Source of the DNA: Spirochaetaceae bacterium
Lineage (GTDB): Bacteria; Spirochaetota; Spirochaetia; SZUA-6; Bin103
DNA: 54,979 bases
Assembly (NCBI GenBank): GCA_028821475.1
Contig: JAPPGB010000028.1
Location: 1-54,979, forward strand
Reading direction: 5' to 3'
Under the pieces are notes generated by a model that worked only from the letters and a program-made list of their open reading frames with translations, ran no database searches and had not been told where the DNA came from. Below are positions 32,656 to 54,979 of this stretch, piece after piece. The translations under genes and the position numbers were made by a program. Every line of letters begins with the position of its first letter. Position 1 is the stretch's first letter.

Positions 32656-32707
32656 ACCCGGAACGGGAATCCGGACTATCCTGGTCTGCGCTTAGTAGGA
32701 CTGTTGA
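32656..32707 (+). repeat. Dispersed 52-bp repeat, copy B
   Basis: Second copy of the element at 25735-25786, with nine substitutions and no gaps. It covers the last codons and stop (32692-32694) of the CysO-MoeZ-type gene, so this copy contributes the QQSY end of that protein. The overlap suggests the element inserted at, or was recruited as, a gene end. Confidence 0.75.
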
Positions 32708-34167: not shown

Positions 34168-34264
34168 GTCGCTACGATAATAACTCCGAACCGAACCGGC
34201 GCCAAACGTCCGGCTACGCGCCCTCCGTGTAGCGGACCGTGTGTCCAATTGGTAACGGAACAGT

Positions 34265-34297
34265 ATAATCAGGCCGCTGTGAAGGATAATCAGGCCA
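34265..34297 (+). repeat. Tandem 11-bp repeat around the YbdK-like start
   Basis: ATAATCAGGCC occurs twice (34265-34275 and 34287-34297), flanking the GTG at 34279. The first copy includes TATAAT, which could be a -10 element, but no matching -35 is placed correctly. The repeat makes the true start uncertain. Confidence 0.5.
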
Positions 34298-35481: not shown

Positions 35482-35494
35482 CCGTCCTACCGCC

Positions 35495-36493: not shown

Positions 36494-36563
36494 GTCACCC
36501 CAACATTATATGCATCGGCGACCGGCGCGTCGCCGGGGCGGAGGCCGGTGTCCCGAACCAGGC

Positions 36564-37433: not shown

Positions 37434-38197
37434 GGTGCGTGAATACTCTGTCGCCCGGCGGCGCTGTCCACGGCATTGCCGCCACGGGCGCCGATCGGCC
37501 GCACGTAATTGCCGTACGCGGCCGCCAGGTGCTCGGCCGCCAGCACGTCCCGGGGCGTGCCGGCCGCGATCAGGCGCCGATTCAACAGCATCACGCGCCC
37601 CAGGTGTTCAGCCACCCCCAGGTCGTGAGTGGCGACCATGACCGCCATCGACTCCCCGACCGCGTCCAGGGTCTCGGTAAGTTGGTGGCTGGCCTCGGCG
37701 TCGAGGCCGGCGTACGGCTCGTCGAGCAGCATGATCTCGGCCTCCTGCGCCAGCGCGCGGGCGATGAACATGCGCCGCCTCTGGCCGCCGGAGAGTTCAC
37801 CGATCTGCCGCCGGCGCAACCCGGTGATGGCGACCCGCTCCATGGCCTCGGCTACGATGGCGCGGTCCCTGCGCCCCGGGTAGCGGAAGTAGCGTACCCG
37901 GGCGACGCGCCCCATCGCCACCACGTCCTCGACGGTGGCGGGGAAGCGTGCGTTCGTGTTGGCCTGCTGCTCGATGTAGGCGATGCACACGTGGCGGTCG
38001 GATCTGCTGCCCGACACCTGCACCGTCCCACCGGTCGGCCTCAGAATCCCGGCAATGACCTTGAACAGGGTGCTCTTGCCGGCACCGTTGGGACCCACCA
38101 CCGCGATCCGCTCGCCGGCGGCCAAGTGCATCGAGACGCCTTCGAGAGCACAACGTCCGGCGTAGTAGGCCCATACGTCATGGAGATCGAGCACCAT
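37430..38197 (-). CDS. Metal ABC transporter ATP-binding protein (ZnuC family)
   Basis: A 255-residue ATPase: Walker A GPNGAGKST, Q-loop YIEQQANTNARFP, signature LSGGQRRRMFIARAL, Walker B IMLLDEPYAGLD and switch His in VATHDLGV. The C-terminal end is Gly/Ala-rich. The ATG at 38197 matches the family start (MVLDLHDVWAYYAG); an in-frame start at 38302 adds an unrelated basic stretch. The matching promoter lies at 38368-38396 under a Fur/Zur-like palindrome, which leaves a leader of about 160 bases. Confidence 0.93.
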   Translation of the reverse strand: MVLDLHDVWAYYAGRCALEGVSMHLAAGERIAVVGPNGAGKSTLFKVIAGILRPTGGTVQVSGSRSDRHVCIAYIEQQANTNARFPATVEDVVAMGRVARVRYFRYPGRRDRAIVAEAMERVAITGLRRRQIGELSGGQRRRMFIARALAQEAEIMLLDEPYAGLDAEASHQLTETLDAVGESMAVMVATHDLGVAEHLGRVMLLNRRLIAAGTPRDVLAAEHLAAAYGNYVRPIGARGGNAVDSAAGRQSIHAP

Positions 38198-38360
38198 GGC
38201 ACCGGCGTCGTGTGCCGGCTCGAGTCGGCGGCTGCGTCCGGCGCCGCCCCCTCGACGTGGACCGGGGTCGATCCCCGGCGACTTCGCCCTAGGCGACGGC
38301 ACGGCACACCGGCGGAGCGGAATCGGCCAGGATGTGTTGTTGTCTCGCGTACATACTATG

Positions 38361-38384
38361 ACAAATCATTATCATTAGTTTGCC
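38361..38384. promoter_or_regulatory. Fur/Zur-like operator over the ZnuCB promoter
   Basis: An AT-rich imperfect palindrome, ACAAATCATTATCATTAGTT followed by TGCC, in GC-rich surroundings. It resembles the repeated ATAAT/CATTA hexamers of Fur-family boxes and covers the -10 of the minus-strand promoter, the usual place for metal-dependent repression. Which family member binds cannot be told. Confidence 0.65.
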
Positions 38385-38396
38385 TCGGAATGTCAA
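38368..38396 (-). promoter_or_regulatory. Promoter for the metal ABC operon
   Basis: On the minus strand, TTGACA (38391-38396) and GATAAT (38368-38373) are separated by exactly 17 bases. This is the best sigma-70-type match I saw in the window. It reads toward the ATPase and permease genes and probably the desaturase. Confidence 0.7.
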
Positions 38397-38457
38397 TCGA
38401 AAACAACCGCAAGATCCGCCTGAAAGCTCATCGTTTGACATCACAAAAACAGTAATG

Positions 38458-38482
38458 GTTTGGCAATATCATTAGCAAATTG
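38458..38482. promoter_or_regulatory. Second Fur/Zur-like palindrome, upstream of the permease-SPFH promoter
   Basis: TTTGGCAATATCATTAGCAA followed by ATTG is an imperfect palindrome with TTTG.C and GC.AAA ends, similar in style to the site at 38361. It lies 27 bp before the -35 of the plus-strand promoter, so it may activate or be a second half of a shared regulation. Confidence 0.5.
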
Positions 38483-38508
38483 TCATCCGATTTTTGTTGA
38501 CAGACATG

Positions 38509-38537
38509 TTGACCGACCTGGTTTACGACGCCATAAT
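38509..38537 (+). promoter_or_regulatory. Promoter for the permease-SPFH cluster
   Basis: TTGACC (38509-38514) and CATAAT (38532-38537) are spaced by 17 bases on the plus strand, about 48 bp before the likely TTG start. Another TTGACA just upstream (38497-38502) is spaced 19 bases from TTTACG and is less good. Confidence 0.6.
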
Positions 38538-38585
38538 AAAATCCGTTCGCGATACGCGTCTGAGGGTAGGGAAACGTCCGGGTTT

Positions 38586-40904
38586 TTGAGCGTATTTGCC
38601 GGGTTCTTCGGCTTTCTCTGGTCGTCGTTCCTGTTGCTGGCACCGATGCTGCTGCTGGGACTGTTCCTGGCCGGCGTGATCCACGTCATGATCTCGCGGC
38701 AGGCGATCCTGCGCTGGCTGCGCCACGACAGCCTGAAATCGGTAAGTACCAGCGCGGCGGTCGGCGTGCCGATCCCGCTGTGCAGTTGCTCGGTGGTGCC
38801 GGTGGTCGCCGAGATGCACCGCAAGGGGGCGTCGCGTTCGTCCTGCATGTCGTTCCTGATCACCGCTCCGGAGACCGGCGCCGACTCGATTCTGATCACC
38901 AACGCGTTCTTCGGGTTCCTGGCCGCCGTCGCTCGTCCGGTCATCAGCTTCATCACCGCCGTGGTGGCCGGCATCTTCTGCATCGGCATGATCCGCGACC
39001 GTCCGGCGCCGCACGATCACGATCACGATCACGATCACGAGCATGACCACGACCACGATGCCCATGATCATCACGGCCACGGTCATGGCGGCCACGACCA
39101 CGCGGTGCACGAGCCACTGCTGCCCGGCAGCGACGACTGCTACGTACGACCGTCGCAACTGAGGGCAGCCCTGGTCGGCTGGGCGCGCAGAACGGTGCAG
39201 AGCGTCAGCGAGAGTATCGGACGGCGCGAGACCGTTACCTGGGTCAAGCCCGATTTCTACCGTTCGGCTGCGTCCGCCGAGCAACCTCGTACGAGCCCCA
39301 GGAAACCGGCTGCGAGTGCCGAGGAACTGGACTTCAAGAACGTCATCAAGCACGTGTTCCGCTACGGGTTCGTCGAGATAGCCGACGACATCCTGTTCTC
39401 GCTGCTGGTCGGCGTAGCGCTCGGCGGGGTGCTCTACCTGGTGATCCCCGGCGACCTGATGGCCAACGAGTACGCGCGCTGGCTGTCCTATCCGATCATG
39501 GTGCTGGTGGGCGTCCCGCTCTACATCTGCGCCTCGGCGAGCACCCCCATCGCCGCCGCGCTGGTCGCCCGCGGCGTCAGTCCGGGGGCGGCGCTGATCT
39601 TTCTCATGACCGGACCGGCTACCAACACCGGCACCATCGCGATCATCGCCAACCAGTTCGGCGCCCGCTTCGCGTCGGTGTACGTGACCGTGGTCATCGT
39701 CGTCACGCTGGCAATCGGCATCCTGGTCGACACCCTGCTGCTCACCGCCGGGGTGACCCTGTCGGTGAATCTCGGCGCCGCCCAGGCCCCGGCGATCTAC
39801 TTCATCGAGTGGGTCGGCGCCTTCCTCCTCATCGCCCTGATCGTCTGGCGCTTCAAGGCCGGCGCCCTGAAGAGCGGTTACCAGGATCTGCTGTCCAACC
39901 TGCGGACGTTCTCGCCGCCCTGGAAACGCGCCTGGCGCCGCCTGACCCGCGGGCGGCCGCTGGCGGGGGTGATCTCTCCCACCGCGCCGCTGGGGATGGC
40001 GCTGTGGATCGCGCTGATCGTGGCGTTTGCCGCCACCGGGCTTACGGCGGTGCCGCCCGAGTCGGTGGGCTACGGCCGGCTGTTCGGAGCGGTCGTGTGG
40101 CGCGACCTGCCCCCGGGTCTGCACTACCTGGCGCCGCGCCCGCTGGTCAGCGTCGACCACTGGCCGGTCCGGGAGGTGAAGTCGGTCACCAATGCGGTGC
40201 CGTTCGAGTACCTGTCGGGCGAGATCAACCTGCTGGCGCTGTCCGTGAACGTGCAGTACCTGGTGCGGGATCCCTATGTCTATCACTACCGGACCGAAGA
40301 TCCCGAACGGGTGATCGTCGACAGCGTGCGGGATGAGGTACGCGCGTTCGTCGCCGCCGGCGACCTGAATCAACTGCTCAACGTACGGCGGGAAGAGTTG
40401 GAAGCGGAGATTCGCGCGCTGTTCTCGGGCTCCGCGGGTGAGCCGGCGCCGGTGCTGCAGGCGGTCGACCTGATCAAGGTGAACCTCGTCGCCATACAGC
40501 CGATCGGGGAGACGATGAGCGCGTTCCGGGAGATCTCCAGCTCCCAGGAAGACCGCGAACGCTACATCGTGGACGCGCAGCGGTTCATGGTGAGCCTGAT
40601 TCCGCAGGCGCACGGCAACGCCATCTACGAGGTCGAGCAGGCGGCCGGCGAGGCGTTCCGGAACGTGACCGCGTCGGCCGCGGAGGCCGCGGCGATCCGC
40701 GCGGTGTCACGCGCGGTGCAGGGAGCGCCCGACGTGCTTCAGAACATGCTGTGGCGCGAGAAGCTGGAGACGGCGCTGGCCGGCGACAACCACAAGATCA
40801 TCGTCCCGAGTCAAGACAGCCTGGACAAGGTAGCGCTGTGGAAGAGATCGGCGGCGTTGGTCCCCGGGCCCGTCGATGGGGGGAGTACGCGGACTCATGA
40901 ATAG
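38586..40904 (+). CDS. Permease with His-rich loop (SO_0444/DUF318 type) fused to an HflK-like SPFH domain
   Basis: A protein of about 772 residues from the TTG at 38586. Residues 1-140 hold the first membrane helices of a COG0701-type permease, with PIPLCSCSVVPV (Cys66, Cys68), EMHRKGAS and APETGADSI. Residues 143-176 are a loop of HD, HDH and HGH repeats, a likely metal-binding patch. Residues about 240-400 are the second permease half, with CASASTPIAAALVARGVSPGA and MTGPATNTGTI. A further helix leads into an SPFH (band 7) domain from about 485: ESVGYGRLFGAV, DLPPGLHYLAPRPL, LLALSVNVQYLVRDPYVYHYR, as in HflK. The permease half resembles SO_0444-type Cu/Zn efflux carriers. An in-frame TTG at 38460 lies upstream of the promoter and is rejected. 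The SPFH end overlaps the next SPFH gene by eight bases. Confidence 0.85.
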   Translation: MSVFAGFFGFLWSSFLLLAPMLLLGLFLAGVIHVMISRQAILRWLRHDSLKSVSTSAAVGVPIPLCSCSVVPVVAEMHRKGASRSSCMSFLITAPETGADSILITNAFFGFLAAVARPVISFITAVVAGIFCIGMIRDRPAPHDHDHDHDHEHDHDHDAHDHHGHGHGGHDHAVHEPLLPGSDDCYVRPSQLRAALVGWARRTVQSVSESIGRRETVTWVKPDFYRSAASAEQPRTSPRKPAASAEELDFKNVIKHVFRYGFVEIADDILFSLLVGVALGGVLYLVIPGDLMANEYARWLSYPIMVLVGVPLYICASASTPIAAALVARGVSPGAALIFLMTGPATNTGTIAIIANQFGARFASVYVTVVIVVTLAIGILVDTLLLTAGVTLSVNLGAAQAPAIYFIEWVGAFLLIALIVWRFKAGALKSGYQDLLSNLRTFSPPWKRAWRRLTRGRPLAGVISPTAPLGMALWIALIVAFAATGLTAVPPESVGYGRLFGAVVWRDLPPGLHYLAPRPLVSVDHWPVREVKSVTNAVPFEYLSGEINLLALSVNVQYLVRDPYVYHYRTEDPERVIVDSVRDEVRAFVAAGDLNQLLNVRREELEAEIRALFSGSAGEPAPVLQAVDLIKVNLVAIQPIGETMSAFREISSSQEDRERYIVDAQRFMVSLIPQAHGNAIYEVEQAAGEAFRNVTASAAEAAAIRAVSRAVQGAPDVLQNMLWREKLETALAGDNHKIIVPSQDSLDKVALWKRSAALVPGPVDGGSTRTHE

Positions 40905-41805
40905 GACTCGCAACCCGAGAAACAGAATCGTGGCAGCGGTCGTGGTGCTGGTGGTACTGGTGATCGCAGCCGACAGCTTCTACGTCATCGACGAGGCGCA
41001 ACAGGGCGTGCTGACCCACTTCGGCAAGATCAGGCTTCCCATCCGGCAGCCCGGCCTGCACCTCAAGTTCCCGCGCCCCATAGCGAAGATCTACAAGGTC
41101 GACCGGCGCATCCACACGCTCGACGGCATCGTGCAGGAGCTGATTACGGAGGACCAGAAGAACGTCCTGGTACACGGCTACCTGCTGTGGCGGGTCGCCG
41201 ACCCGGTCAAGTACGTCGAGGCGATTCGCACCGAGGCCAACGCGATCGACCGCCTGCGAGACCTGTACCTGTCCAGCAGCGGCATCGTGATCAGCAACAA
41301 GGCGCGCGACGCGTTCGTCAGTCTGGGGCTGCATCGCGAAGACCGGCACGTGGCGGCCGAGGAGATACTCGGGCGGATCAAACCCACCGCCGCCGCCGAA
41401 TACGGCATCGACATCCTCAGGGCCGGCATCGTCGAGTACACGTTGCCACCCGAGAACCGGCCCAGCGTCATCCAGCGCATGATCTCCGAGCGCGCGCGCA
41501 TCGCGGCCCGCTACCGCAGCGAGGGTGAAGAGATGGCGCTGCGCATCGAAGCGCTGGCGATCAACGAGCACGAGCGGCTCATGGCCAACGCCCATGCCGA
41601 GGCGACGGAGATTCTCGGCCAGGCGGAAGCGCAGGCTTTGGAGCTGCTCGGAGCGGCGTACCGGGAGGACCCCGACTTCTACAAGTTCGTCCGCGCACTC
41701 GACAGCTACGATGCGATCATCGACGACCGCACCACCCTCCTGCTGCCGGCCGACAACGAGCTGTTCAGGTACCTGGACGCCAACCGGATCCCGGCGCCGG
41801 AGTAG
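40897..41805 (+). CDS. HflC-like SPFH (band 7) protein
   Basis: A 302-residue protein with one N-terminal membrane helix (VAAVVVLVVLVIAADSFYV), then the SPFH domain: EAQQGVLTHFGKI, QPGLHLKFPRPIAKI, LDGIVQELITEDQKNVLVHGYLLWRVADPVKYVEA, as in HflC. A Glu/Ala-rich helix follows (about 190-260: MALRIEALAINEHERLMANA). It should assemble with the HflK-like partner as an outward-facing ring on the membrane. The neighbourhood has no FtsH, so it may scaffold the permease rather than a protease. The ATG at 40897 overlaps the previous gene. Confidence 0.88.
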   Translation: MNRTRNPRNRIVAAVVVLVVLVIAADSFYVIDEAQQGVLTHFGKIRLPIRQPGLHLKFPRPIAKIYKVDRRIHTLDGIVQELITEDQKNVLVHGYLLWRVADPVKYVEAIRTEANAIDRLRDLYLSSSGIVISNKARDAFVSLGLHREDRHVAAEEILGRIKPTAAAEYGIDILRAGIVEYTLPPENRPSVIQRMISERARIAARYRSEGEEMALRIEALAINEHERLMANAHAEATEILGQAEAQALELLGAAYREDPDFYKFVRALDSYDAIIDDRTTLLLPADNELFRYLDANRIPAPE

Positions 41806-41813
41806 CGCAGCGA

Positions 41814-43223
41814 ATGAGTGACGGGACCTCGCTACCGCCGAGCACGCGCATTATCTACGCCGTGTTCGATTACGCCGGGCAGCACAAGACCCGGATCCTG
41901 GCGGCGGCCGTCGCGGTGGCGGTCGCGGCGCTGCTGGTCAGCGGCGTTTACGTCGTCAAGAAGGAAGAACGCGGCGTTCGGGTGCGCTTCGGGAAGGTGA
42001 TCACCGCGGTGGTCGAGCCCGGTCTGCACTATCGGATTCCCCTCGTCGAACGCGCACACGTCCGCAAGGTGATGCGCATCGAGCGCCAGCGCATCGCCAG
42101 CCAGGGAGGCGATGCCGGCACCACGGCGTTCACCATCCTGTCCGGCGATACCAACCTGCTGGAGATCGACCTGGTCGTGCAGTACCGCATCGACAACCTG
42201 CGGGACTACCTGTACGCGTCGTCCGATCCTCACCGACTGCTCGCCCTGGTAACGCGCGAACAACTGGTCGACATCGTCGGCAGGAACTTCGTCGACCTGA
42301 TATTCACCCAGAACCGCGACTACATCGAGCGCCATCTGACCGAGCACACGATCGAGCAGCTCGCAGAGCACGGCATCGGCCTGGAGATTGTCTCGCTCAG
42401 CATCGTCGACGTGCGCCCGATCGCCGAAACCCTCCCCGCGTTCCGGGACGTCAACGACGCCATCGCCGAGCGCATGCAGGCGGTGAGCGATGCCAACCGG
42501 CGGCGGGAACAGCTCCTCGCCCACACCCGCGGTCAGGCCGAAGCGCTGCTGCTGAACGCAAAGGCGAAGGCGACGGAACGTGTCGTGCAGGCAGGTGCCA
42601 GCTCCACCGTATTCGCCGCGCTGCTCGGCGAGTACCGCGAACAGCCGGAACAGGTGGCGATCACCCGCTACTGGCAGCGCATGCGGACGATCTTCGCCGA
42701 AGCGCACCTGGCGGCGGTCAATCCCGATGCCGACTCCACCATCGACATCAACATGCTCGACGGCATTGCGACCTACCCGCCGGCCGCGCTGCCCGCGGAC
42801 GCGATGGCGGCTGCCGGTCGCGGCGAGATGGCCGACCGGCCGTTGCTGCCCACGCTGCAACCACCCGGAATGCACACGATCGAGACCGTGGAGGCGGACA
42901 AGCCACTGCTCGAAGGGCAGTTCCACGAGCCGCTCACGGAACGTGACCACGGCGCCGCGCACCCGCGTTCGCTGCTGTTCGACACCCCGTCGATCTTCAC
43001 TCACCGGCACGCCGTAACGCGTGCCCTCCGCGGCCTGCGGCCGCGAGCGGAGGCGCCGAGCGCCCGCCGACCGGCGGATGAAACGGGTGCAGCAGACCCG
43101 TATGCGCACCAGGTACCAGCCGACCCGGAACCGACCGGCCAGACCCTGGTTGACCAGACCTCGGCCGAACAAGCTTCGGTGTCGCCGTCGACGGACAAGG
43201 GTGACCATGGCGCCGATGACTGA
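41814..43223 (+). CDS. HflK-like SPFH (band 7) protein with disordered tail
   Basis: A 469-residue protein. One membrane helix (about 28-48), then the SPFH domain: KKEERGVRVRFGKVI, VEPGLHYRIPLVERAHVRKV, ILSGDTNLLEIDLVVQYRIDNLRDYL, with the HflK-type helix ADANRRREQLL replaced by SDANRRREQLLAHTRGQAEALLLNAKAKATERVV. After about residue 330 the chain is Pro/Ala/acidic and likely disordered, ending near EQASVSPSTDKGDHGADD. It starts nine bases after the HflC-like gene and overlaps the following binding-protein gene by 17 bp. So three SPFH domains are encoded in a row. Confidence 0.88.
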   Translation: MSDGTSLPPSTRIIYAVFDYAGQHKTRILAAAVAVAVAALLVSGVYVVKKEERGVRVRFGKVITAVVEPGLHYRIPLVERAHVRKVMRIERQRIASQGGDAGTTAFTILSGDTNLLEIDLVVQYRIDNLRDYLYASSDPHRLLALVTREQLVDIVGRNFVDLIFTQNRDYIERHLTEHTIEQLAEHGIGLEIVSLSIVDVRPIAETLPAFRDVNDAIAERMQAVSDANRRREQLLAHTRGQAEALLLNAKAKATERVVQAGASSTVFAALLGEYREQPEQVAITRYWQRMRTIFAEAHLAAVNPDADSTIDINMLDGIATYPPAALPADAMAAAGRGEMADRPLLPTLQPPGMHTIETVEADKPLLEGQFHEPLTERDHGAAHPRSLLFDTPSIFTHRHAVTRALRGLRPRAEAPSARRPADETGAADPYAHQVPADPEPTGQTLVDQTSAEQASVSPSTDKGDHGADD

Positions 43224-44373
43224 GTGTCCGGGCCGCAGGCAGGGCTCGTTCCTGACCGTCTGTCTCGTTCTTCTGACAGCGTGTCTGCCGGCGGCGGCCG
43301 CCCCGGGGGTCACCGACAGCGCGATCGTGTTCGGCCAGAGCGCGAGTCTGTCGGGTCCGAACCGCCATCTCGGGATTCACTACCAGGCGGGCATCGAGGC
43401 CGCCTTCGGCGAGCGCAACCGGCGCGGCGGGGTTGCCGGCAGGATGCTGGAGCTCAGTTCGCTGGACGATCATTACGAGCCGGAGCAGGCGGCCGCCAAT
43501 GCCCGCTTGTTCGCCGACCGGAACGACGTATTCGCCGTAGTCGGCGGGGTGGGCACGCCGACCGCCCAGCGCATGGTGCCGATCCTGCGGGCGGCGGGCA
43601 TTCCGTTCGTCGGCCCCTTCACCGGGGCCGACTTCCTGCGCGACCCCGCGCGCTCTCCCAACGTGGTCAACCTGCGCGCCGGGTATCTCGACGAAACGCG
43701 GGTGCTGGTTGACTACATGCTCAATGCCCTGGGGAAGCGCCGCTTCGGGATCATCTACCAGGACGACGCCTTCGGCCGCTCGGTCCTCAGGAACTTCCAC
43801 TTGGTGCTGGAGAGTTACGACCTTCCGATCCTGGCTCGATCCACCTTTTCGCGCAACACGCACGCGGTCCATGCCAGCCTGTTCACCCTGGCCAAGGCGG
43901 ATCTGGACGCCATCCTGGTCGTGGGGAGCTATCCCGTCAATTCGCTCATTGTCAATCTGGCCGATGCCCTGGGCCACGAGTACGTGATCGCCAACCTGTC
44001 GTTCGTGGGCTCGCAAGCACTCCGGGACGGGATAGAACACCCGAGCGAACGAATCCTGGTGACGGAAGTGATGCCGGACCCGCAGGACCTTACCCGGTCG
44101 CTGGTGCGACGCTTCCGGGCCGCCATGGTGGCGCAGCACGCCGCCGACGAGGTGGACCACCTGACCGACGCCGTATCGCTCGAGGGATACGTCCTGGGCC
44201 GGTTCGTGATCCACGTGCTGGAGCGGATGGGCGGCGAACTGACCCGCGAGCGTTTTCTGGACACTGCGCTGTCGCCCGATCCGGTGGCGATCGAGGACTG
44301 GACCATTCGATTCGAGCCCGGTACCAATGTCGGCTCCGACTACGTCAGATTGACCCATTTGGGACAGCCATGA
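43207..44373 (+). CDS. Periplasmic type I binding protein (branched-chain amino acid ABC type)
   Basis: A 388-residue secreted Peripla_BP_6 (LivJ-like) protein. The signal peptide (FLTVCLVLLTACLPAAAAPG) contains LLTAC, so it might be lipidated. The family start is DSAIVFGQSASLSGPNRHLGIHYQAGIEAAF, then RGGVAGRMLEL, LDDHYEPEQAAANARLF, VGGVGTPTAQRMVPIL and FGIIYQDDAFGRSV. No LivFGMH genes adjoin, so it is not a standard transporter partner and may act as a sensor for the SPFH/permease assembly. The ATG at 43207 follows AAGGG and overlaps the SPFH gene. Confidence 0.87.
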   Translation: MAPMTECPGRRQGSFLTVCLVLLTACLPAAAAPGVTDSAIVFGQSASLSGPNRHLGIHYQAGIEAAFGERNRRGGVAGRMLELSSLDDHYEPEQAAANARLFADRNDVFAVVGGVGTPTAQRMVPILRAAGIPFVGPFTGADFLRDPARSPNVVNLRAGYLDETRVLVDYMLNALGKRRFGIIYQDDAFGRSVLRNFHLVLESYDLPILARSTFSRNTHAVHASLFTLAKADLDAILVVGSYPVNSLIVNLADALGHEYVIANLSFVGSQALRDGIEHPSERILVTEVMPDPQDLTRSLVRRFRAAMVAQHAADEVDHLTDAVSLEGYVLGRFVIHVLERMGGELTRERFLDTALSPDPVAIEDWTIRFEPGTNVGSDYVRLTHLGQP

Positions 44374-44404
44374 CAGCCATGACTGCCATGAAGGAGAGTA
44401 GCCG

Positions 44405-44893
44405 TTGAAAAAGCTGGACGAATTCTCCGCCGAGGAGACCGGCGAGGAGTGGCTGCGCGAACTCTACAAGGTCATAACCATGCGGCGCACTTCGATGTTC
44501 CGGCTGATTACCGAGTCGGTTCGGCTGCTGCTGTTCGGCAATGGCGGAGGAGTGGCGCTGATCATCGGCTTCATGAGCGCCTTCGGCGGCACTGACACCG
44601 CCTCGTTCCACTGGCTCGCGCTGGGCACGCTGGTCCTGTTCGCATGCGGAACCCTGGTCGCCGCGCTGACCATGCTGCTGGTAACCGCGGTCACGGTACA
44701 GGAAGCGCACGGCGCGGAAAAGGGACTGAAACGGTTCGTCGACGGCGACACGGACCGCACGCAGACGCTGTTCACCATCGAGCCGCACACCTTTCGGCTC
44801 GCCGACTACGCCACGCTGTGCGGCATCGTCAGCACGGGAGCGTTCCTGCTCGGCGGCCTCGGCAGCATCGTTCTGCTGATCCTGTTCTTCTAG
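44405..44893 (+). CDS. Small membrane protein of unknown family
   Basis: A 162-residue protein with three or four hydrophobic segments (LLLFGNGGGVALIIGFMSAF, then WLALGTLVLFACGTLVAALTMLLV, and a C-terminal GIVSTGAFLLGGLGSIVLLIL), with a charged N-terminus and a cytoplasmic-looking loop of acidic and basic residues between. The start is a TTG at 44405 with AAGGAG nine bases before it. I do not recognise the family. It follows the binding protein by 31 bp and is the last gene of the SPFH cluster. Confidence 0.75.
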   Translation: MKKLDEFSAEETGEEWLRELYKVITMRRTSMFRLITESVRLLLFGNGGGVALIIGFMSAFGGTDTASFHWLALGTLVLFACGTLVAALTMLLVTAVTVQEAHGAEKGLKRFVDGDTDRTQTLFTIEPHTFRLADYATLCGIVSTGAFLLGGLGSIVLLILFF

Positions 44894-44920
44894 CGCAACC
44901 GCCGCCCGCGAGAACCCCTG

Positions 44921-45874
44921 CTAGAACAACTGGGTCACGCTGAAGGCGACGGCGACGCTGGCGGCGAGGCCTATCGTCGCCTTGAAGGCGTCCTTGATTA
45001 CCAGCATGGTGGTGTCGCGGTGCGAACGCAGCATGGTGTCGAACCCGACCGCGAACTCACGTCCGGCGAGCAGACCCAGAAACACCCACGTCGTGCTCAT
45101 CGGCACGTTGCTGAGCTCCTTGAAGACGAACAGGATCACGCCGAAGATAAAGTCGATTACCGTCGCCGAGCGAATGTCTGCGGTGTTGATCTTGGTGGTG
45201 ACGATGCGCTGGATTTTGCCGCCACGGAGATAGAACATCCAGGCGTGCAACGCCAGCATGACGGCGACAACCACGATCAACAGTTCGATACCGATCTCGC
45301 GCGGCAGGTATACGGCAATGTTGGCTATGTCCTGAACCAGCCACTGACTCCACAGGAACGCCGTCGACAGCCACTGGAGCGCGACCCAGTACGACGCCGG
45401 CTTGCGCTTGGAGGTTTCGATGAAGCGGCGTTCGGCGATGCGCATCACCAGGCGATAGACCAGGTAGCCTACCGTCAACGCCACCGCGTAGCCCAGCAGC
45501 GACTTGGTCAGCATGCTGCCCAGCCCGCCCGGGTTGAACGCGGTCAGGATCAGGAACGTGGTGCTGACCGGAATGCCGAATCGGGTCAGCCCGAGAAGCA
45601 CGGCGGGCGGAATCAGCATCCACCAACTGAACGTCTCCAGCTCCGGAATCTTCGCCAGTCTTCCGTACGAGATGTCTCCGTCCTGGGTGAAATATCCGAA
45701 CAGAAATACGGCTACCAGCACACCGCCGGCGAACAGCCAGAGCAGCCACCAGGGGCGGTGCGCGTTCGACACCAGAAACGTGCCGAGCGTCTGAATCGCA
45801 TCGTTGGCAACCACCGCGTAACCGGCCATCAGAAATCCGACTATCATGTAGATCTCTGTGGCGGAAAATGGCAT
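44921..45874 (-). CDS. PiT-like (inorganic phosphate transporter-related) membrane protein
   Basis: A 317-residue integral membrane protein. Two PiT-type half-repeats can be seen: YAVVANDAIQTLGTFLV and, later, LSNVPMSTTWVFLGLLAGREF, matching the GANDxxN and PxSTTH signatures in degenerate form. IPVSTTFLILTAF is another PiT-like segment. The missing N in ANDAIQ suggests that phosphate may not be the substrate; related proteins carry sulfate. The ATG at 45874 follows GAGGAG; the upstream frame is not conserved. It is convergent with the SPFH cluster and divergent from the GPP34 gene. Confidence 0.8.
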   Translation of the reverse strand: MPFSATEIYMIVGFLMAGYAVVANDAIQTLGTFLVSNAHRPWWLLWLFAGGVLVAVFLFGYFTQDGDISYGRLAKIPELETFSWWMLIPPAVLLGLTRFGIPVSTTFLILTAFNPGGLGSMLTKSLLGYAVALTVGYLVYRLVMRIAERRFIETSKRKPASYWVALQWLSTAFLWSQWLVQDIANIAVYLPREIGIELLIVVVAVMLALHAWMFYLRGGKIQRIVTTKINTADIRSATVIDFIFGVILFVFKELSNVPMSTTWVFLGLLAGREFAVGFDTMLRSHRDTTMLVIKDAFKATIGLAASVAVAFSVTQLF

Positions 45875-45917
45875 CTCGTACTCCTCGAAGTCCGCGCATG
45901 GTAACATGTGGACACCC

Positions 45918-46574
45918 ATGTTGACTATTGTCGAAGAGATACTTCTGCTGGTACTGGACGAGAAAACCGGCAAGTTTCAGGACCGGTTGCCGGTGCACTC
46001 GCTGCGCCACGCGGCAAGCGGAGCGGTGCTCATGGAACTGGCGCTGAATGACCGCATCGACACCGATGTCCACCAGCTCTTCGTGGTGGATCCGAAACCG
46101 CTCGGGGAGCCGGTGCTGGACCGCAGCCTGGCACGGATCGTCGCGGACGGCGGGAACCGGCCGACCAGCCATTGGGTGGGCGCATTCGCGGAAGAGTACG
46201 ACTCCTTGCAGCGGCAACTGCTCGACCGCCTGGTCGAGCGCGGCATCCTGGCTCGGCACGAAGAGCGGCTGCTGTGGGTGTTCGGTTCGCGCCGTTATCC
46301 GGTGGTGGAAGGGAGCCCGCTACGCGACGTCAAGCGGCGCATCATGGACGTACTGTTGACCGACACGATTCCCGATCCGCGCGACGTGGTGATCATCTGC
46401 CTGGCCGACGCCTGCGCCCTGTGGCACAGCCTGATCCACCCGCGCGAGCTGGCCGGGATGGAGCCGCGGATCGCGCAAGTGGTCAAGCTGGACCTGATCG
46501 GCCAGTCGGTCGCACGTACCATTCGCGAACTGCAGGACGCCACCCGCGGCCTCGAAGCCAAGTGGTTCAAGTAA
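45918..46574 (+). CDS. GPP34 (Golgi phosphoprotein 3) family protein
   Basis: A 218-residue cytoplasmic, peripheral membrane-type protein. The opening LTIVEEILLLVLDEKTGKF, then RHAASGAVLMELALNDRID and the helix-rich rest match the GPP34 fold, which in eukaryotes binds phosphatidylinositol-4-phosphate and recruits Golgi glycosyltransferases; bacterial members are of unknown role. Starts at 45906 and 45918 are both possible. It is divergent from the PiT-like gene across 43 bp. Confidence 0.8.
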   Translation: MLTIVEEILLLVLDEKTGKFQDRLPVHSLRHAASGAVLMELALNDRIDTDVHQLFVVDPKPLGEPVLDRSLARIVADGGNRPTSHWVGAFAEEYDSLQRQLLDRLVERGILARHEERLLWVFGSRRYPVVEGSPLRDVKRRIMDVLLTDTIPDPRDVVIICLADACALWHSLIHPRELAGMEPRIAQVVKLDLIGQSVARTIRELQDATRGLEAKWFK

Positions 46575-46623
46575 CTCGCAGCGCTCCGGTGGCGCCGGGG
46601 CGTCCCACGCAGTCACGGCACGA

Positions 46624-47682
46624 TCAAGGTGCCAGTGCGGCCACGATACGCTCGACGTTGGTACGCATGAAGTCCTGATACGTTGCGGCGGGACCACCGG
46701 GTTCGCTCAGCGAACCGGTATAGATGGCCACCAGCTCGATGCCCAGGTCATCGGCCACTGTTTGCGCGGTCTGCGGACTCACCGTAGTGCCGATGAAGAT
46801 CGCCGGAATGCCATGTTCGGCGATCGTCTCCCGCAGTTGCGCCAAGTGGCGGGCGGACGGCTCGGATGCCGTGCTTACGCCGGGAACGACAGTCTCCAAC
46901 AGCTCGAAGCCGTAACGATCGGCAAAGTAACTCAGCACGTCATGGTCGGTCACCAGGACACGAAGCGGTGCGGGGACGGCGCTTACCCGGCTCCTGATCC
47001 ATGCATCCAGTTCTTGCAGCTCGTCGCTCAGCGTGGCTGCGCGGGCGGCGTACTCCGCGGCGTGCTCAGGGTCCACCTCGGCGAGCGCCTCCGCGATCTC
47101 GACCGTCCACCCGGCGACCAGCGTCGGGTCCATCCACACGTGGGCATCGAATTCTCCATGATGGTCCTCTTCCTCGCCGTGGTGGTCTTCTTCCTCGCCG
47201 TCCTCACCGTGGTCGTCGGCCTCGCCGTCTTCCTCGTCCTCCTCGTCATGGTGGTCTTCTTCGTCACCATCACCGGGCTCCTCATCGTGTTCCTCCTCCT
47301 CGACATCGTCCATCCTCCGAAGCGGCAGGTGCGCGGAAACCTCCACCATGCGGCGCGGCTCGGCGGTCTCCAGCAGGCTGCCGAGAAAGTCGGCTTCGAG
47401 CCCGGCGCCGTTGGCAAACAGCACGTCGGCATCGGCAACGTGGCGCAGGTCACGGGGGGTCGGCTGAAACACGTGAGGATCGACGCCCGGAGCCAGCATT
47501 ACGTAGAGCGAGATCCGGTCACCCCCGATACCGGCGACGATGTCGCCAACGATGGTGGTAGTCGCCACCACCAATACGGCGTCGCCGGACGGCTGTTCCT
47601 GTGCCGGGGAGGCGAACAGATACGGCGTCGCGAGTGCGAGCGCGACGACCAGGGTCGCATTCTGAATCAGTCTGATGTGCAT
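46624..47682 (-). CDS. ZnuA-like metal-binding periplasmic protein
   Basis: A 352-residue secreted cluster A-I binding protein. Signal peptide ends about LFASPAQEQ. Metal His are in GVDPHVFQPTPRDL, FDAHVWMDP and VLVTDHDVLSYFADRYGF, with the last Asp/Glu near IYTGSL. Between them (about 125-177) sits a long loop of D, E and H (EEDHHDEEDEED and similar), the hallmark of zinc-specific ZnuA proteins, where it acts as a zinc sink. It most likely serves the ZnuBC pair at 36.6-38.2 kb, although the SPFH cluster lies between. The ATG at 47682 has alternatives at 47688 and 47691. Confidence 0.9.
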   Translation of the reverse strand: MHIRLIQNATLVVALALATPYLFASPAQEQPSGDAVLVVATTTIVGDIVAGIGGDRISLYVMLAPGVDPHVFQPTPRDLRHVADADVLFANGAGLEADFLGSLLETAEPRRMVEVSAHLPLRRMDDVEEEEHDEEPGDGDEEDHHDEEDEEDGEADDHGEDGEEEDHHGEEEDHHGEFDAHVWMDPTLVAGWTVEIAEALAEVDPEHAAEYAARAATLSDELQELDAWIRSRVSAVPAPLRVLVTDHDVLSYFADRYGFELLETVVPGVSTASEPSARHLAQLRETIAEHGIPAIFIGTTVSPQTAQTVADDLGIELVAIYTGSLSEPGGPAATYQDFMRTNVERIVAALAP

Positions 47683-47837
47683 GGCCATCATCCTACTATA
47701 ACGACAGCTCATTACCAATTAGGAGTGGGGTCCGGTTCGAGGCCGTTCGGTTCATGCCTCGCCCCGCGCGGCGTCACCCGGATCGGAGTGCAGGATACGC
47801 ACTCGTCTCACGCGCCAATGCACCGACGTGCGTTTCA

Positions 47838-48656
47838 CTATGGCAGCTTCTCGAACAGGAAGGTGCCTACCGCGGGGGCGCCGTCGGTAAAGTCGGTGTC
47901 CCTGGACTCACTGCTCAGGCGGGAGATCGGCTGCGGTGGATCGGAGTCGGCGTTCCCGCTCATGAACCTGGCCCCATCGTCGGTGCCGGCGTCGTAGAGG
48001 CGGAGCATCACTTTCTCACGCTCTTTCCAGGTGCCGTCCTCGGCCACCAGCGACAGGGCGGAGACGCCGACGAACCAGTCGGGGCTCGGCGCCAGCATGC
48101 TCACCAGCGTCACGTACGGGTGCGACGAGACGATGTCGAATTCCATTCTGACGCTCGACGGAGGAGTGGACAGTCCGCCGCCGGAAAGCTTCCCATGTGC
48201 GGTCCCGGCTGCGATCAAATCATCGATTTCTGCGAGAAGTTTCATCTTGCCGCCGGTCTCTGCCATCGACTCGATGCCGTCCGAGGCGAGTTCACCGAGT
48301 TGCCAGATGCGGGTGTCGGCGTCGTGCGTGGCCCCGATCAGCCCGGAGAAATGCGGGCCGTCGGGGAAGTTGGTCGGATGCGTCACCGCGCTCCAGGTGG
48401 CGGCAAACGTAACCCGATACCGCGCTTCGCTCTCGGCCGGCTGGGGCGACTCCGTCTCTGGCGTCTCCGGTGACTCCGTCTCCGGTGACTCCGTCTCGGG
48501 AGATTCCGTCTCCGGAGATTCGGTCTCAGGCGATTCCATCGGCGGTGATTCCATCGGCGGAGGTTTTGGCGCGCCTCCCATGGAGCAGGTTGCGCTGAGC
48601 AGAACGGCGGCCGTTACCACCAACGGAACAAGAAGCCGATGCATGCGCGACAACAT
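47838..48656 (-). CDS. Spondin-domain lipoprotein with SPETE repeats
   Basis: A 272-residue exported protein. The signal ends in the lipobox LSATC, so it is lipid-anchored. A low-complexity stalk follows with SPETE units and MESP variants (about residues 33-70). From about 78 on it has a spondin N-like domain: YRVTFAATWSAVTHPTNFP, HFSGLIGATHD, PYVTLVSMLAPSPDWFVGVSAL, and KVMLRLYDAGTDDG. Such domains occur in secreted adhesive proteins and are of unclear function in bacteria. The ATG at 48656 is chosen; a TTG at 48680 and an ATG at 48644 are alternatives. It starts 25 bp after the JAMM gene. Confidence 0.85.
   Translation of the reverse strand: MLSRMHRLLVPLVVTAAVLLSATCSMGGAPKPPPMESPPMESPETESPETESPETESPETESPETPETESPQPAESEARYRVTFAATWSAVTHPTNFPDGPHFSGLIGATHDADTRIWQLGELASDGIESMAETGGKMKLLAEIDDLIAAGTAHGKLSGGGLSTPPSSVRMEFDIVSSHPYVTLVSMLAPSPDWFVGVSALSLVAEDGTWKEREKVMLRLYDAGTDDGARFMSGNADSDPPQPISRLSSESRDTDFTDGAPAVGTFLFEKLP
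48446..48560 (-). repeat. Tandem coding repeat for SPETE units
   Basis: An array of 15-base units (GACTCCGTCTCCGGT on the plus strand, with variants) encodes about five SPETE peptides, then drifts into PMESP units at the signal-peptide end. Unit number is likely to vary between strains. Confidence 0.8.
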
Positions 48657-48680
48657 AGCCGTGCCGATCCGGCGGCGCAA

Positions 48681-49139
48681 TCAGGGGCGTACGGCCAGTT
48701 CGTCGGTCAGGAAGCCGGAGCGGTCGGGGTCGAGCAGGAACGCGCCTGCGCCGGCGGCAGCGGGCTCGGCGTCTCCTGTGTCCGGCGCCACGCGCCGCCG
48801 GATCGACATGATGACGTAGACGAAGTTGGGCTGCGCCCAGGCGAGGTCAGTGGCGCTCGGCTCGGCCGGGTGCTCGGGATGCGAGTGGTAGAAGCCGAGC
48901 AGCGTCTTGCCGGCGCCGTCGGCGGCGCGCTCGGCGGCGAGGTAGGCGAGCGGCGACACCAGGTAGCGGCGCTTGCGGTTCTCGCCGGAACGGTTGTCGA
49001 TCGGAAACAGGCGCTCCACGGTGCGCCCATTCCCGCCCGCGGTCACGGCCCCGATCAGCGCACCGACGCACTCTTCCGGATAGGCATCGCGGCCGTGCCG
49101 CTCAATCTCATCGAACAGGATCTTCGGTAGCGTCGTCAT
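48681..49139 (-). CDS. JAMM/Mov34 metallopeptidase (Mec-like)
   Basis: A 152-residue stand-alone JAB/JAMM protease. The zinc and catalytic residues fit ExnHxHx10D: Glu22 or 23 (PEECVGAL), His85 and His87 in GFYHSHPEHP and Asp98. In mycobacteria, Mec removes the terminal Cys from the CysO-cysteine adduct. Its ATG overlaps, ATGA-style, with the stop of the unshifted CysM frame, so the two were a coupled pair. It could also cut CysO away from the CysO-MoeZ fusion, which ends its ubiquitin-like part in GG. Confidence 0.9.
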   Translation of the reverse strand: MTTLPKILFDEIERHGRDAYPEECVGALIGAVTAGGNGRTVERLFPIDNRSGENRKRRYLVSPLAYLAAERAADGAGKTLLGFYHSHPEHPAEPSATDLAWAQPNFVYVIMSIRRRVAPDTGDAEPAAAGAGAFLLDPDRSGFLTDELAVRP

Positions 49140-49205
49140 CGTCCTCTTCCACCGGCGTTTCCGGCCGCCGCTGCCGCGGATCGGAACGGGTCCTCGATCA
49201 CGTAG

Positions 49206-50222
49206 TCATCGTTCTCGACTGGCGGCAGCGCGGTCCGCGGGCCGGAATGGGTCTTCGGAAACATACTCCTCGTTCTCGACTGGCGGCAGTGCGGTCCGCG
49301 GCCGGAATGGGTCTTCGGAAACATACTCCTCGTTCTCCCAGTACGGATCATCCAGGTACTTCAGCGAGTTGTCCGGGAACAGGGTAACCACGGTGGCGCC
49401 GGGGTTGCCGCGCGCCACCTCCAGGGCTGCCCACAGGTTGGCGGCCGCGCTTGGGCTGAGCGCGTAGCCCAGGTAGCGCCCGGCCGCGATCGCGAACCGG
49501 TAGGCAGTCTCGGTGTCCGCCTCCAGCACCTCGTCGGCCACGGCCGTGTCGTAGATGCCGGGCACGCGGGCGGTCGGCATGTGCTTCCAGCCTTCCAGGC
49601 CGTGGATCGGGTTGTCCGGCTGCACGGCGATGCAGCGCACGCCGCGCTCGCGCAGGAACCGGGCGGTGCCGATGAAGGTGCCGCTGGTGCCCAGGCCGGC
49701 CACGAAGTGGGTCGCCTGACCGCCCGACTGCCGCCAGATCTCGGGCCCGGTGCCGGCGTAGTGGGCGCGCCAGTTGTGCTCGTTGTTGTACTGGTCGGGA
49801 TAGAAGTAACGGTCGGGGTGCGCGGCGGCCAGCTCCGCCGCCTTCTTCTGCGCGCCGTCGGTGCCTTCCAGGTTGGAGGTGAACAGTGAGCGCGCGCCGT
49901 AGTTGGCGATGATGCGCTTGCGCTCCGGGGTGACGTTGGCCGGCATCACCAGCTCCACCGGCAGCCCGAGCGCGCTGCCGAACATGGCCAGCGCGATGCC
50001 GGTGTTGCCGCTGGTCGCCTCCAGGATGGTGCGCCCGGCCAGCGCGCCGCCGGCCAGCGCGGCCTCCACCATCCCCTTCGCCGCGCGGTCCTTCACCGAG
50101 CCGCTCGGGTTGTAGTATTCCAGCTTGGCCAGGATGCGCGCCGCCGACGCGGTCTGGGAGATCTCCACCAGCGGCGTGTTCCCCACCAGGCGCGCGACAC
50201 GCTCGAAGGCGTCGACTCGCAT
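49206..50222 (-). CDS. cysM: CysM-like cysteine synthase with C-terminal repeats and apparent frameshift
   Basis: A 338-residue PLP enzyme. Lys44 in NPSGSVKDR binds PLP, EATSGNTGIALAM is the substrate loop, and GLGTSGTFIGTARFL the phosphate loop. GNTPLVEI at the start is standard. It is of the OASS-B (CysM) type rather than CysK, consistent with use of O-phosphoserine or O-acetylserine with a carrier thiocarboxylate. The tail contains ENEEYVSEDPFRP units and then turns to an out-of-frame ADRAAASRER. Ignoring one extra G (49239-49241), the frame runs on through VENDDYVIEDPFR to 49136. It lies nine bp after the E1 gene and is likely co-transcribed. Confidence 0.88.
   Translation of the reverse strand: MRVDAFERVARLVGNTPLVEISQTASAARILAKLEYYNPSGSVKDRAAKGMVEAALAGGALAGRTILEATSGNTGIALAMFGSALGLPVELVMPANVTPERKRIIANYGARSLFTSNLEGTDGAQKKAAELAAAHPDRYFYPDQYNNEHNWRAHYAGTGPEIWRQSGGQATHFVAGLGTSGTFIGTARFLRERGVRCIAVQPDNPIHGLEGWKHMPTARVPGIYDTAVADEVLEADTETAYRFAIAAGRYLGYALSPSAAANLWAALEVARGNPGATVVTLFPDNSLKYLDDPYWENEEYVSEDPFRPRTALPPVENEEYVSEDPFRPADRAAASRER
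49210..49330 (-). repeat. Tandem 60-bp repeat in the cysM tail
   Basis: Two near-identical units (49210-49270, 61 bases; 49271-49330, 60 bases) encode an EYVSEDPFRPRTALPPVENE-type 20-residue repeat. The first listed unit has a GGG where the other has GG, which shifts the frame. A partial third unit continues on the left (ENDDYVIEDPF). Confidence 0.88.
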
Positions 50223-50231
50223 GCGCCCGCT

Positions 50232-52697
<2,466 letters not shown>

Positions 52698-52744
52698 GTT
52701 CGGTTACTCCCTCGCGGCGTGCGGTCTACTCGCCGCAACCCGCG

Positions 52745-54124
52745 TTACCATTGCACTTCCCACAACACGTCGCGCAACGCCTCCGACACCGTCGGATGGG
52801 GAAACACGATCTCGCGCAGCTCCTCGACGCGCAACTCCGCTTCGATCATGGTGGCTGCGCCGAAGATAATCTCCGAGGCGGGCGTGCCGATCATGTGCAC
52901 GCCGAGCAGCACGCGGCTGTCGCCGTCGACCACCACCTTGACCAGCCCGCGCGGCGTGGCGGCATGCGCGGCGGAGCCGGGCGCCAGGTGCTCGGCAAGA
53001 AAACGCCCGTTGGCAGCCAGCGGCAGGCGCGCTACCCGCACGTTGCGGCCGGAGGCGCGCGCGGCTTCCTCGGACAGGCCCACGCCGGCGATCTCGGGCA
53101 AGGTATACACTACCCACGGCACCGCGTGGTAGCGCATTCGGTTGCTGCCGGGCTGCGGCGACGCGATGGCATCCACCGCCACCTCGCCCATGCGCGAGGC
53201 GGCGTGCGCGAGCAGGGAGCGCCCGGTCACGTCGCCCACCGCGTACAGGCCGGACACGTTGGTGCGCTGGTACTCGTCAACCGTCAGTCCGCGGCGGTTG
53301 AACACCGCCCCGGCCGCCTCCAGCCCCAGGCCGTCGGTATTGGGCGTCCGTCCGGTCGCCAGCAGCACCAGGTCCGCCGCCTCTTCCCGCTCCCCTCCGG
53401 TGGTGGCGACGGCGACTCCGGAGGCGGTGATCGCCGACACCCGCGCCCCGAGGTGCCACGCCACGCCGGGCAGTGCGCTCTTGAGCTGGCGCACGATGTC
53501 GCCGTCCACCCCGGCCAGGATGTCGTCGAGCATCTCCACCACCACCACCTCACTGCCGACGGCGTGGTAGTAGCAGGCGAACTCCATGCCGATGTAGCCG
53601 CCGCCGACGATCACCACGCGGGCCGGAAGCTGCTGCAACTGCAGCGCGCCCGTGCTGTCCACCACGTGCGGCAGGCCGGCGCCCGGAATCGGCGGGCGAG
53701 CCGCGTGCGAGCCGGTGGCCACGATCACGTTGCGGGCGGCCAGCTCGCGGCCGTCCACGGTCAGCCGGCCGCGCCCGGTCAGCATCCCGGTGCCGCGCTC
53801 CACGGTGACGCCGTGCCGTTCCATCTGGCTCGCCACGCCGCCGCGCAACCGCTCGGTGACCGCGCTCTTCCAGGCCATGGCCGCGCCGAGGTCATAGCGC
53901 GCCTCGCTCACGGTCACGCCGTAGGCGGCGCTGCCGCGCGCCTGCTGCAACAGCTTGGCGGAGTGAATCAGCGTCTTGGTGGGGATGCAGCCGCTGTTCA
54001 GGCACACCCCGCCGAGGTGCTCGCGCTCCACCAGCACGGTCGTCAGGCCGCGCGCGGCGGCGCGCTCCGCTGCCACGTACCCGCCCGGCCCGCCGCCCAC
54101 CACGGCAACATCGAAATCGCTCAT
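52745..54124 (-). CDS. lpdA: Dihydrolipoamide dehydrogenase (E3)
   Basis: A 459-residue FAD enzyme. FAD loop VVGGGPGGYVAAERAA, redox Cys pair in GGVCLNSGCIPTKTLI, NAD loop VVIVGGGYIGMEFA, YAVGDVTGR and the C-terminal HPTVSEALRDV with the catalytic His. It reoxidises the lipoyl arm of the E2. It starts 10 bp after the E2 gene and ends 47 bp before the E1 gene. Confidence 0.96.
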   Translation of the reverse strand: MSDFDVAVVGGGPGGYVAAERAAARGLTTVLVEREHLGGVCLNSGCIPTKTLIHSAKLLQQARGSAAYGVTVSEARYDLGAAMAWKSAVTERLRGGVASQMERHGVTVERGTGMLTGRGRLTVDGRELAARNVIVATGSHAARPPIPGAGLPHVVDSTGALQLQQLPARVVIVGGGYIGMEFACYYHAVGSEVVVVEMLDDILAGVDGDIVRQLKSALPGVAWHLGARVSAITASGVAVATTGGEREEAADLVLLATGRTPNTDGLGLEAAGAVFNRRGLTVDEYQRTNVSGLYAVGDVTGRSLLAHAASRMGEVAVDAIASPQPGSNRMRYHAVPWVVYTLPEIAGVGLSEEAARASGRNVRVARLPLAANGRFLAEHLAPGSAAHAATPRGLVKVVVDGDSRVLLGVHMIGTPASEIIFGAATMIEAELRVEELREIVFPHPTVSEALRDVLWEVQW

Positions 54125-54134
54125 GCCCGGCTTC

Positions 54135-54979
54135 CTAGAGCGCGGCGAGCAGGTCGATGTCGGCGATCGCCGCGCCGAGCGCCTGCAGGAAACGCGCCGC
54201 CGGCGCGCCGTCCACCACCCGATGGTCGATGGTCAGCGACAGGCCGAGGTGGCGGCGCCAGCGAACCTGCGCCGGATCGGGCGCGCCCGGGGCCGCCGGA
54301 TCGGCGAGCACCGGCTGCAACGCCAGCGCGCCGACGCCCAGGATCGCCACCTGCGGCAGGTTGAGAATCGGCGTGAAGCTGTCCACCCCCAGCGCCCCGA
54401 GATTGGTGACCGTGAAGGTGCCGCCCCGCAGCAGGTCGGGGCTGATCGATCCCGCCTGCGTGGCGGCGGCCAGCTCATGGGCGCGCGCCGCCAGTGCCGC
54501 GATCGACAGCCGGTCGGCGCCGGCGATCACCGGCACCACCAGCCCGCGCTCGGTATCCACGGCGAACGCAAGCTGCACCGCTCGGTGGCGCTCGATGCGG
54601 TCTCCCGCAACCACCGCGTTGAGCTCCGGGTAGCGCGGCAGCGTGCGCGCCACGGCGTACAGGACGAGGTCGTTGATGGTGACGCCGGCCAGGCCCAGGT
54701 GCTCGGGGCTCGCCTTCAGGCGCGCGCGGTAGGCGAGCAGCGCCTCGGCGTCGGCCGTGGCATGCATGGTGAGCTGCGCCGTGTCGCTCAGCGACTGCTG
54801 CATGCGCTCGCTGATCAGCTTGCGCACCCCGGTAATCGGAACCGTCTCGACCGCTTCCGGCCCCCCGCCGGCCTCGGCAGCCGCGGGCGCGGCGGCGACC
54901 GCCGCCATGTCGGCCAGCGTGACCCGTCCGCCGATGCCGGTGCCGGTCGCGGGCACCCGAGCACCGGCGGCTGCTGCCG
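54135..54979 (-). CDS. Dihydrolipoamide acyltransferase (E2), partial at the window edge
   Basis: The frame stays open to the right edge, so the lipoyl domain lies outside. What is seen starts in the end of the peripheral-subunit-binding domain ([17 protein letters not shown]), then an Ala-rich linker and the catalytic acyltransferase domain: [36 protein letters not shown], the active-site His in [18 protein letters not shown] possible internal start is a GTG at 54956, but the domain logic makes it internal. Confidence 0.94.

Follow-up and report, generated by a model that had tools for sequence, protein, structure and literature searches.

The stretch of DNA analyzed here (54,979 nt from a Spirochaetaceae bacterium; hereafter the window) encodes a CysM-type cysteine synthase and a JAMM metallopeptidase side by side and, about 14 kb away, a single chain in which a CysO-like sulfur carrier is followed by an E1 activating enzyme and a rhodanese domain. 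E1 enzymes (MoeB/ThiF) adenylate a free C-terminal glycine, and hence the fused carrier cannot work uncut. The locus thus raises the questions of what would free the carrier and whether the distant gene belongs with the pair. The reading we favor, at a probability of roughly 0.7, is a thiocarboxylate route to cysteine of the CysO-CysM-Mec type in which the carrier is made as an N-terminal domain of the enzyme that activates it and the JAMM peptidase has two jobs, freeing the carrier and releasing its product.

Table 1 Features of the cysteine synthase, peptidase, and carrier fusion genes in the window
Feature	Position	Strand	Details or basis
CysO-like carrier, E1 (ThiF/MoeB), and rhodanese in a single chain	32692..34167	-	491 aa from ATG 34167
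Rhodanese domain, active-site loop CKMGGRS	32722..32988	-	domain search
ThiF/MoeB adenylation domain, two CXXC motifs	33148..33852	-	domain search
GG/S joint (residues 91-93)	33889..33897	-	predicted JAMM cut after Gly92, inferred from MoaX Gly82-Ser83
CysO-like ThiS domain, residues 1-92, ends IVPSIAGG	33892..34167	-	domain search, alignment
Genes now between JAMM and fusion: desaturase, small gene, and 47838-48680 gene shared with G001; about 11 kb (36490-47838)	34290..48680		
JAMM (Prok-JAB, M67) metallopeptidase	48681..49139	-	152 aa; E23, H85, H87, S95, D98
ATGA, stop of shifted CysM frame on JAMM start codon	49136..49139	-	frame reading
Tail-repeat array, about 60/61-nt copies encoding ENEEYVSEDPFRP-like units	49174..49337	-	CysM end; extra C in copy 2
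CysM-type (PALP) cysteine synthase	49206..50222	-	338 aa; PLP lysine K44; Lys213 in HGLEGWKHM
2-oxoacid dehydrogenase E1 (50232-52697), E3 (52745-54124), E2 catalytic domain (54135-54956)	50232..54956	-	directly upstream of CysM

The gene pair and the carrier fusion

The first-pass annotation of this DNA had named a CysM and a JAMM gene, and both were borne out: open reading frames with intact catalytic residues lie at exactly those coordinates. In a profile search of the window, the synthase matched the PALP domain (E = 7.1e-60) and the peptidase matched Prok-JAB (E = 1.2e-20). The JAMM motif (E, HxH, S, D) is intact and its residues, given in Table 1, are invariant. Among NCBIfam models cysM is nearest to the synthase and the desampylase model matches the peptidase, both with scores under cut-off. 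The best PDB match of the peptidase is 2kcq, a protein named Mov34/MPN/PAD-1 family that we take to be from Salinibacter ruber. Two further Prok-JAB matches, both weaker, were found in the window genome, and either protein could in principle do one of the two jobs assigned here to the JAMM.

The open frame of the fusion runs through 32692-34248 from a TTG at 34248 and encodes the ThiS, ThiF, and rhodanese domains as a single chain; ATG 34167 is probably the natural start, giving a protein that begins MAITIHIPTPLRPF. The best solved relative of the ThiS domain is Mycobacterium tuberculosis CysO (3dwg_C), a full-length match (E = 3.5e-16). The NCBIfam SAMP1 model also matches this domain, with a score under cut-off. 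Residues 91-92 are GG and are followed in the same open frame by SGPAALSP and the E1 domain, such that no free C-terminal GG is encoded. An AlphaFold model of the fusion, built from a six-row alignment, had a mean pLDDT of 60.6, with values below 50 for the joint (residues 87-95) and for much of the E1 domain. No plasmid sequence record covered 80% of the fusion, and a full-text literature search returned no named CysO-MoeZ or ThiS-ThiF-rhodanese fusion, although one may still exist in print.

The activating part had been labeled MoeZ-type, a label that had to be dropped. The fused E1 carries both CXXC motifs (C265-x2-C268 and C339-x2-C342) and resembles MoeBR rather than MoeZR, E1-rhodaneses of the latter kind being mostly without the two motifs (PMC3227635). 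The NCBIfam MoeB subfamily model scored above its cut-off for this part of the chain and was alone in doing so, as no equivalog model reached cut-off. The fused E1 is the sole E1 match in the window genome at E<=1e-10, and it may also activate other carriers, for example the two of the same genome (C73 and C112) that end in a bare GG.

These properties could also be read to mean that the freed carrier chiefly donates sulfur to molybdopterin or tRNA, or modifies proteins, with the JAMM acting in deconjugation, as the haloarchaeal desampylase does. The desampylase and SAMP1 matches (both under cut-off), the CXXC motifs as in MoeB and MoeBR, and the failure to find a second E1 of its kind in the genome all fit such a role. 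However, CysO is the best solved relative of the carrier, the operon includes CysM in several lineages, and the two bare-GG carriers are separately available for such tasks, and we consider this role unlikely.

The CysM tail, the acceptor, and other cysteine synthesis

As sequenced, CysM stops 66 nt short of the JAMM ATG and the genes do not overlap. The first-pass annotation had them overlapping at ATGA in the unshifted frame. Its arithmetic was correct, in that the next stop in the frame one base off the open CysM frame would overlap the JAMM ATG as ATGA, but the real genes lie 66 nt apart and those of the sister genomes overlap by 32 nt. Sister CysM proteins have a single tail copy and end NDDYVTEDPFR or similar. 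In the window, the tail-repeat copies fall in different frames, a single extra C in the second repeat putting the next copy out of frame, and another degenerate copy (EEDDDDATEDPVR, then a stop), which covers the JAMM start in the third frame, resembles the native tail of the sister proteins. Expansion of the tail repeats probably pushed CysM and JAMM apart, and the repeat array, rather than the loss of a 4-nt overlap, best explains the arrangement. The frameshift was also considered as a lesion that breaks CysM. This was rejected: the shift is located in the tail past the end of the sister proteins, and thus the enzyme is not expected to suffer.

The alignment places Lys213 of the window CysM at the position of Arg220 of M. 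tuberculosis CysM (numbering verified on 3dwi), which we take to be the O-phosphoserine residue. The check for O-phosphoserine residues that the first-pass annotation had called for thus gave a divided result, a basic residue being kept, as Lys and not as Arg. All 20 of the 20 CysM proteins of the carrier/JAMM-linked class examined have Lys at this position, and in seven of seven CysK paralogues the residue is absent through deletion. Judged from the sequences, this is a distinct class of CysM in which Lys213 would keep a positive charge where O-phosphoserine would bind. Among the sequences examined, the signature HG[IL]EGxK[HY] separates carrier-linked synthases from CysK. Note that a basic residue at this position is insufficient to fix the acceptor, since E. 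coli CysM likewise has Arg there (in an ungapped reading of the alignment) and O-phosphoserine is not a substrate of Campylobacter CysM (PMC9855970). A SerC homologue, the O-phosphoserine source, is present in the window genome and in its relative G001, and the model that matched those two found none in the sister genomes G002 and G003.

The window genome also encodes a CysK above the NCBIfam cut-off and a CysE-like hexapeptide protein under it, and hence the carrier route is probably additional rather than the sole one. The first-pass annotation had held that a complete CysE/CysK route, with the carrier set absent from sister genomes, would speak against its proposal. The first half of this was found insofar as CysK and the CysE-like gene are present, but each of the four family genomes has the set. 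Neither of the two outcomes named beforehand as speaking against the proposal was thus seen. This organism can probably also make cysteine from sulfide, which would accommodate a JAMM that only uncaps the carrier, as QbsD-type JAMM proteins are known to do (PMC6006322). Cysteine would then be released by another enzyme, or CysM would act on free sulfide like any cysteine synthase B and the thiocarboxylate would serve elsewhere, and the closest solved relatives of the window synthase (among the matches listed) are indeed E. coli-type CysM proteins. We nevertheless regard uncapping as the sole job as a minority possibility, though the strongest of the alternatives, because the 32-nt overlap in the sister genomes couples CysM tightly to the JAMM and because the class-wide Lys motif, seen in JAMM-linked CysM only, points to a CysM that acts with the carrier.

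Linkage and capping across genomes

Chance open frames were excluded by the dN/dS values obtained against the closest genome, which were 0.17 for the CysM core, 0.14 for the JAMM, 0.075 for ThiS, 0.10 for ThiF, and 0.07 for rhodanese (pairwise values against G002 and G003 were near saturation and were left out). In the sister genomes G002 and G003, the CysM, JAMM, and fusion genes are contiguous with no intervening gene. In G001 (Spirochaetaceae bin103, L015), the JAMM and the fusion are separated by three genes (3 kb), and the window, where the distance is about 14 kb, has those genes plus about 11 kb more (36490-47838) that is unmatched in the sister loci. The three genes, including the same fusion, also form a contiguous operon beyond the phylum, in L016 (Verrucomicrobia) and L017 (Gemmatimonadetes). 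From these gene orders the 14-kb gap looks secondary. The proposal that the CysM-JAMM pair belongs with the distant fusion is therefore upheld by contiguous operons in sister genomes and in two other phyla. The co-occurrence expected by the first-pass annotation was likewise found, the fusion (71-100% identity) and the JAMM being present in four of the four family genomes, a sample that spans two genera. Within the order the fusion occurs in 4 of 26 genomes, all of them of this family. A 2-oxoacid dehydrogenase gene directly upstream of CysM is also kept in the sisters (the E1 component in G002 and the E2 component in G003). The gene at 47838-48680, which adjoins the JAMM and separates it from the fusion in the G000/G001 pair alone, encodes a putative secreted protein with ESPETESPETE repeats.

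On a wider scale, all 36 Spirochaetota genomes that have this JAMM family (E<=1e-8) fall among the 45 that have the E1 (E<=1e-75), from a total of 393 genomes (hypergeometric 7e-43, a value that ignores kinship of the genomes). The link between fusion and CysM does not hold in every lineage: in family f8 (L129 and L130 of genomes G345 and G373), the fused carrier-E1 and JAMM genes adjoin encapsulin and cysteine desulfurase genes, and no CysM of the HGxEGxKHM class was found in those two genomes, where only CysK-type synthases were detected. The f8 fusion may serve another sulfur transfer.

A JAMM-carrier-E1 operon followed by genes for a family 2A encapsulin shell and a cysteine desulfurase cargo was seen in three spirochaete genomes of two families and on an Aliarcobacter plasmid (L129:4999-7741, L134:589-3394, L136:1056-3453, and L144:8017-10453). 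Sulfur for the rhodanese domain may come from the encapsulated desulfurase. A search of the window's family for encapsulin gave no match, nor did the control for the same search. A published encapsulin survey mentions rhodaneses and serine acetyltransferases, with ThiF and JAB absent from its text (PMC8346489).

The joint itself is conserved. GG occurs at the same place in eight of eight fused proteins and is followed by linkers that differ in length and sequence. Free carriers encoded beside such E1 or JAMM genes also have residues beyond GG, between 1 and 15 of them, in nine of nine cases, a set of modest size that was collected by similarity to the window's proteins. Five are from another spirochaete family, in whose genomes CysM, JAMM, carrier, and E1 are separate genes, and these carriers end GGIQG, GGTSRG, GGAFFDRFMGGGGKWEK, GGRRG, and GGSPARTAIRIKAP. 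Others beside CysM, JAMM, or E1 end GGKS (L035), GGR (L066), and GGI (the Aliarcobacter plasmid), and the free carrier of G242, which is next to an E1 gene in an incomplete genome where no CysM was found, ends GGIYEYSFS. The two other carriers of the window genome have a bare GG end. Capping is not universal in CysO systems, since M. tuberculosis CysO ends at GG, the last of the 93 residues of 3dwg_C aligning with query residue 92, the second Gly.

In G336, the carrier TAG and the E1 ATG share a frame and are 6 nt apart, and hence a one-codon change would create a fusion. In an E1-rhodanese tree the fused proteins do not form one clade, and at least three changes (gains or losses) are forced by well-supported branches, several of the deep forks being weak. 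We lean, by a narrow balance of probability, toward a general rule that the carrier of this CysO branch is always made capped, the cap being either a few residues or the E1 that activates the carrier, that one JAMM both switches the carrier on and releases the product, and that fusion to E1 delivers carrier and activator in equal numbers.

It could be argued that the fusion is never cut and that its N-terminal domain is regulatory or serves in docking, as in the Campylobacter-type Ub-like domain on ThiF. Such fused domains are known, alongside a separate ThiS, from the account in PMC1779556. The domain studied here is CysO-like and retains GG in eight of eight proteins, however, the operon loci yielded no separate carrier, and an uncut chain would have no free C-terminus to adenylate, all of which makes an uncut fusion very improbable.

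Proposed route and comparison with known systems

From the presence and linkage of the genes, their intact motifs, and the buried GG, we infer a route of four steps. The JAMM would first cut after the GG of the CysO-like domain to give a free carrier and a MoeB-rhodanese enzyme. That enzyme would then adenylate the exposed glycine, its rhodanese domain supplying sulfur to form the thiocarboxylate. CysM would join the thiocarboxylate to an activated serine, probably O-phosphoserine. Following an acyl shift, the same JAMM would take cysteine off the carrier C-terminus.

Two jobs are assigned to one JAMM because the operon-encoded enzyme is the obvious candidate for uncapping and because the related Mec of M. 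tuberculosis releases cysteine from CysO (PMC3227635). Precedents for the first job are in print: MoaX is cleaved at Gly82-Ser83 (PMC4326299), DRJAMM cuts Deinococcus MoaD-MoaE (PMC8832034), and QbsD uncaps QbsE-type carriers (PMC6006322). The residues at the GG/S joint of the window are identical to those at which MoaX is cut. Together with the invariant GG at the joint and the uniform capping of unfused carriers, these precedents lend support to the two-job idea, already put forward in the first-pass annotation, and one JAMM would thus do both jobs on an E1-capped CysO. The system offers a clear and inexpensive way to ask whether maturation of a ubiquitin-like carrier and liberation of its product are the work of one bacterial JAMM, both being deubiquitinase jobs in eukaryotes.

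The closest parallel is the M. tuberculosis CysO-CysM-Mec system with MoeZR, which shares the CysO-like carrier, the CysM-type synthase, the JAMM, the E1-rhodanese, and operon linkage of synthase and JAMM. In the window, however, fusion to E1 leaves the encoded carrier without a free GG, the E1 is MoeBR-like in having both CXXC motifs, Lys replaces Arg220 in CysM, and the JAMM would have to do an additional job at an earlier step. Operon type 4c of Iyer, Burroughs and Aravind (2006), as set out in the text and Table 1 of PMC1779556, comprises ThiS/MoaD, E1-rhodanese, JAB, and cysteine synthase, and includes Srub, presumably Salinibacter ruber. The same four activities are contiguous in G002, G003, L016, and L017 and are 14 kb apart in the window. 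The carrier is a separate protein in that text and table, and a three-domain fusion is not among the descriptions given there. The Campylobacter-type Ub-like-ThiF proteins of that account have a domain distinct from ThiS together with a separate ThiS, whereas the window domain is CysO-like and has GG.

Residues past GG and a dedicated, linked JAMM are shared with QbsE/QbsD and PtmS2/PtmS1 (eight fused and nine short-capped carriers here). Caps in those systems are short, and natural products receive the sulfur, whereas here the cap can be as large as a whole enzyme and the operon includes CysM. A carrier that is fused ahead of a partner enzyme and cut after GG is likewise found in MoaX (M. tuberculosis) and MoaD-MoaE (Deinococcus radiodurans). 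Their partner is MoaE and their pathway molybdopterin synthesis, whereas here the partner is the activating E1 and the proposed pathway cysteine synthesis. The operon type (4c, 2006), uncapping by a JAMM (QbsD), and the cleavage of fused carriers by a JAMM (MoaD-MoaE) were thus known already. What appears to be new here is the E1-fused carrier, by which fusion to an activating enzyme joins the ways in which sulfur carriers are already known to be capped, and the proposed cap rule.
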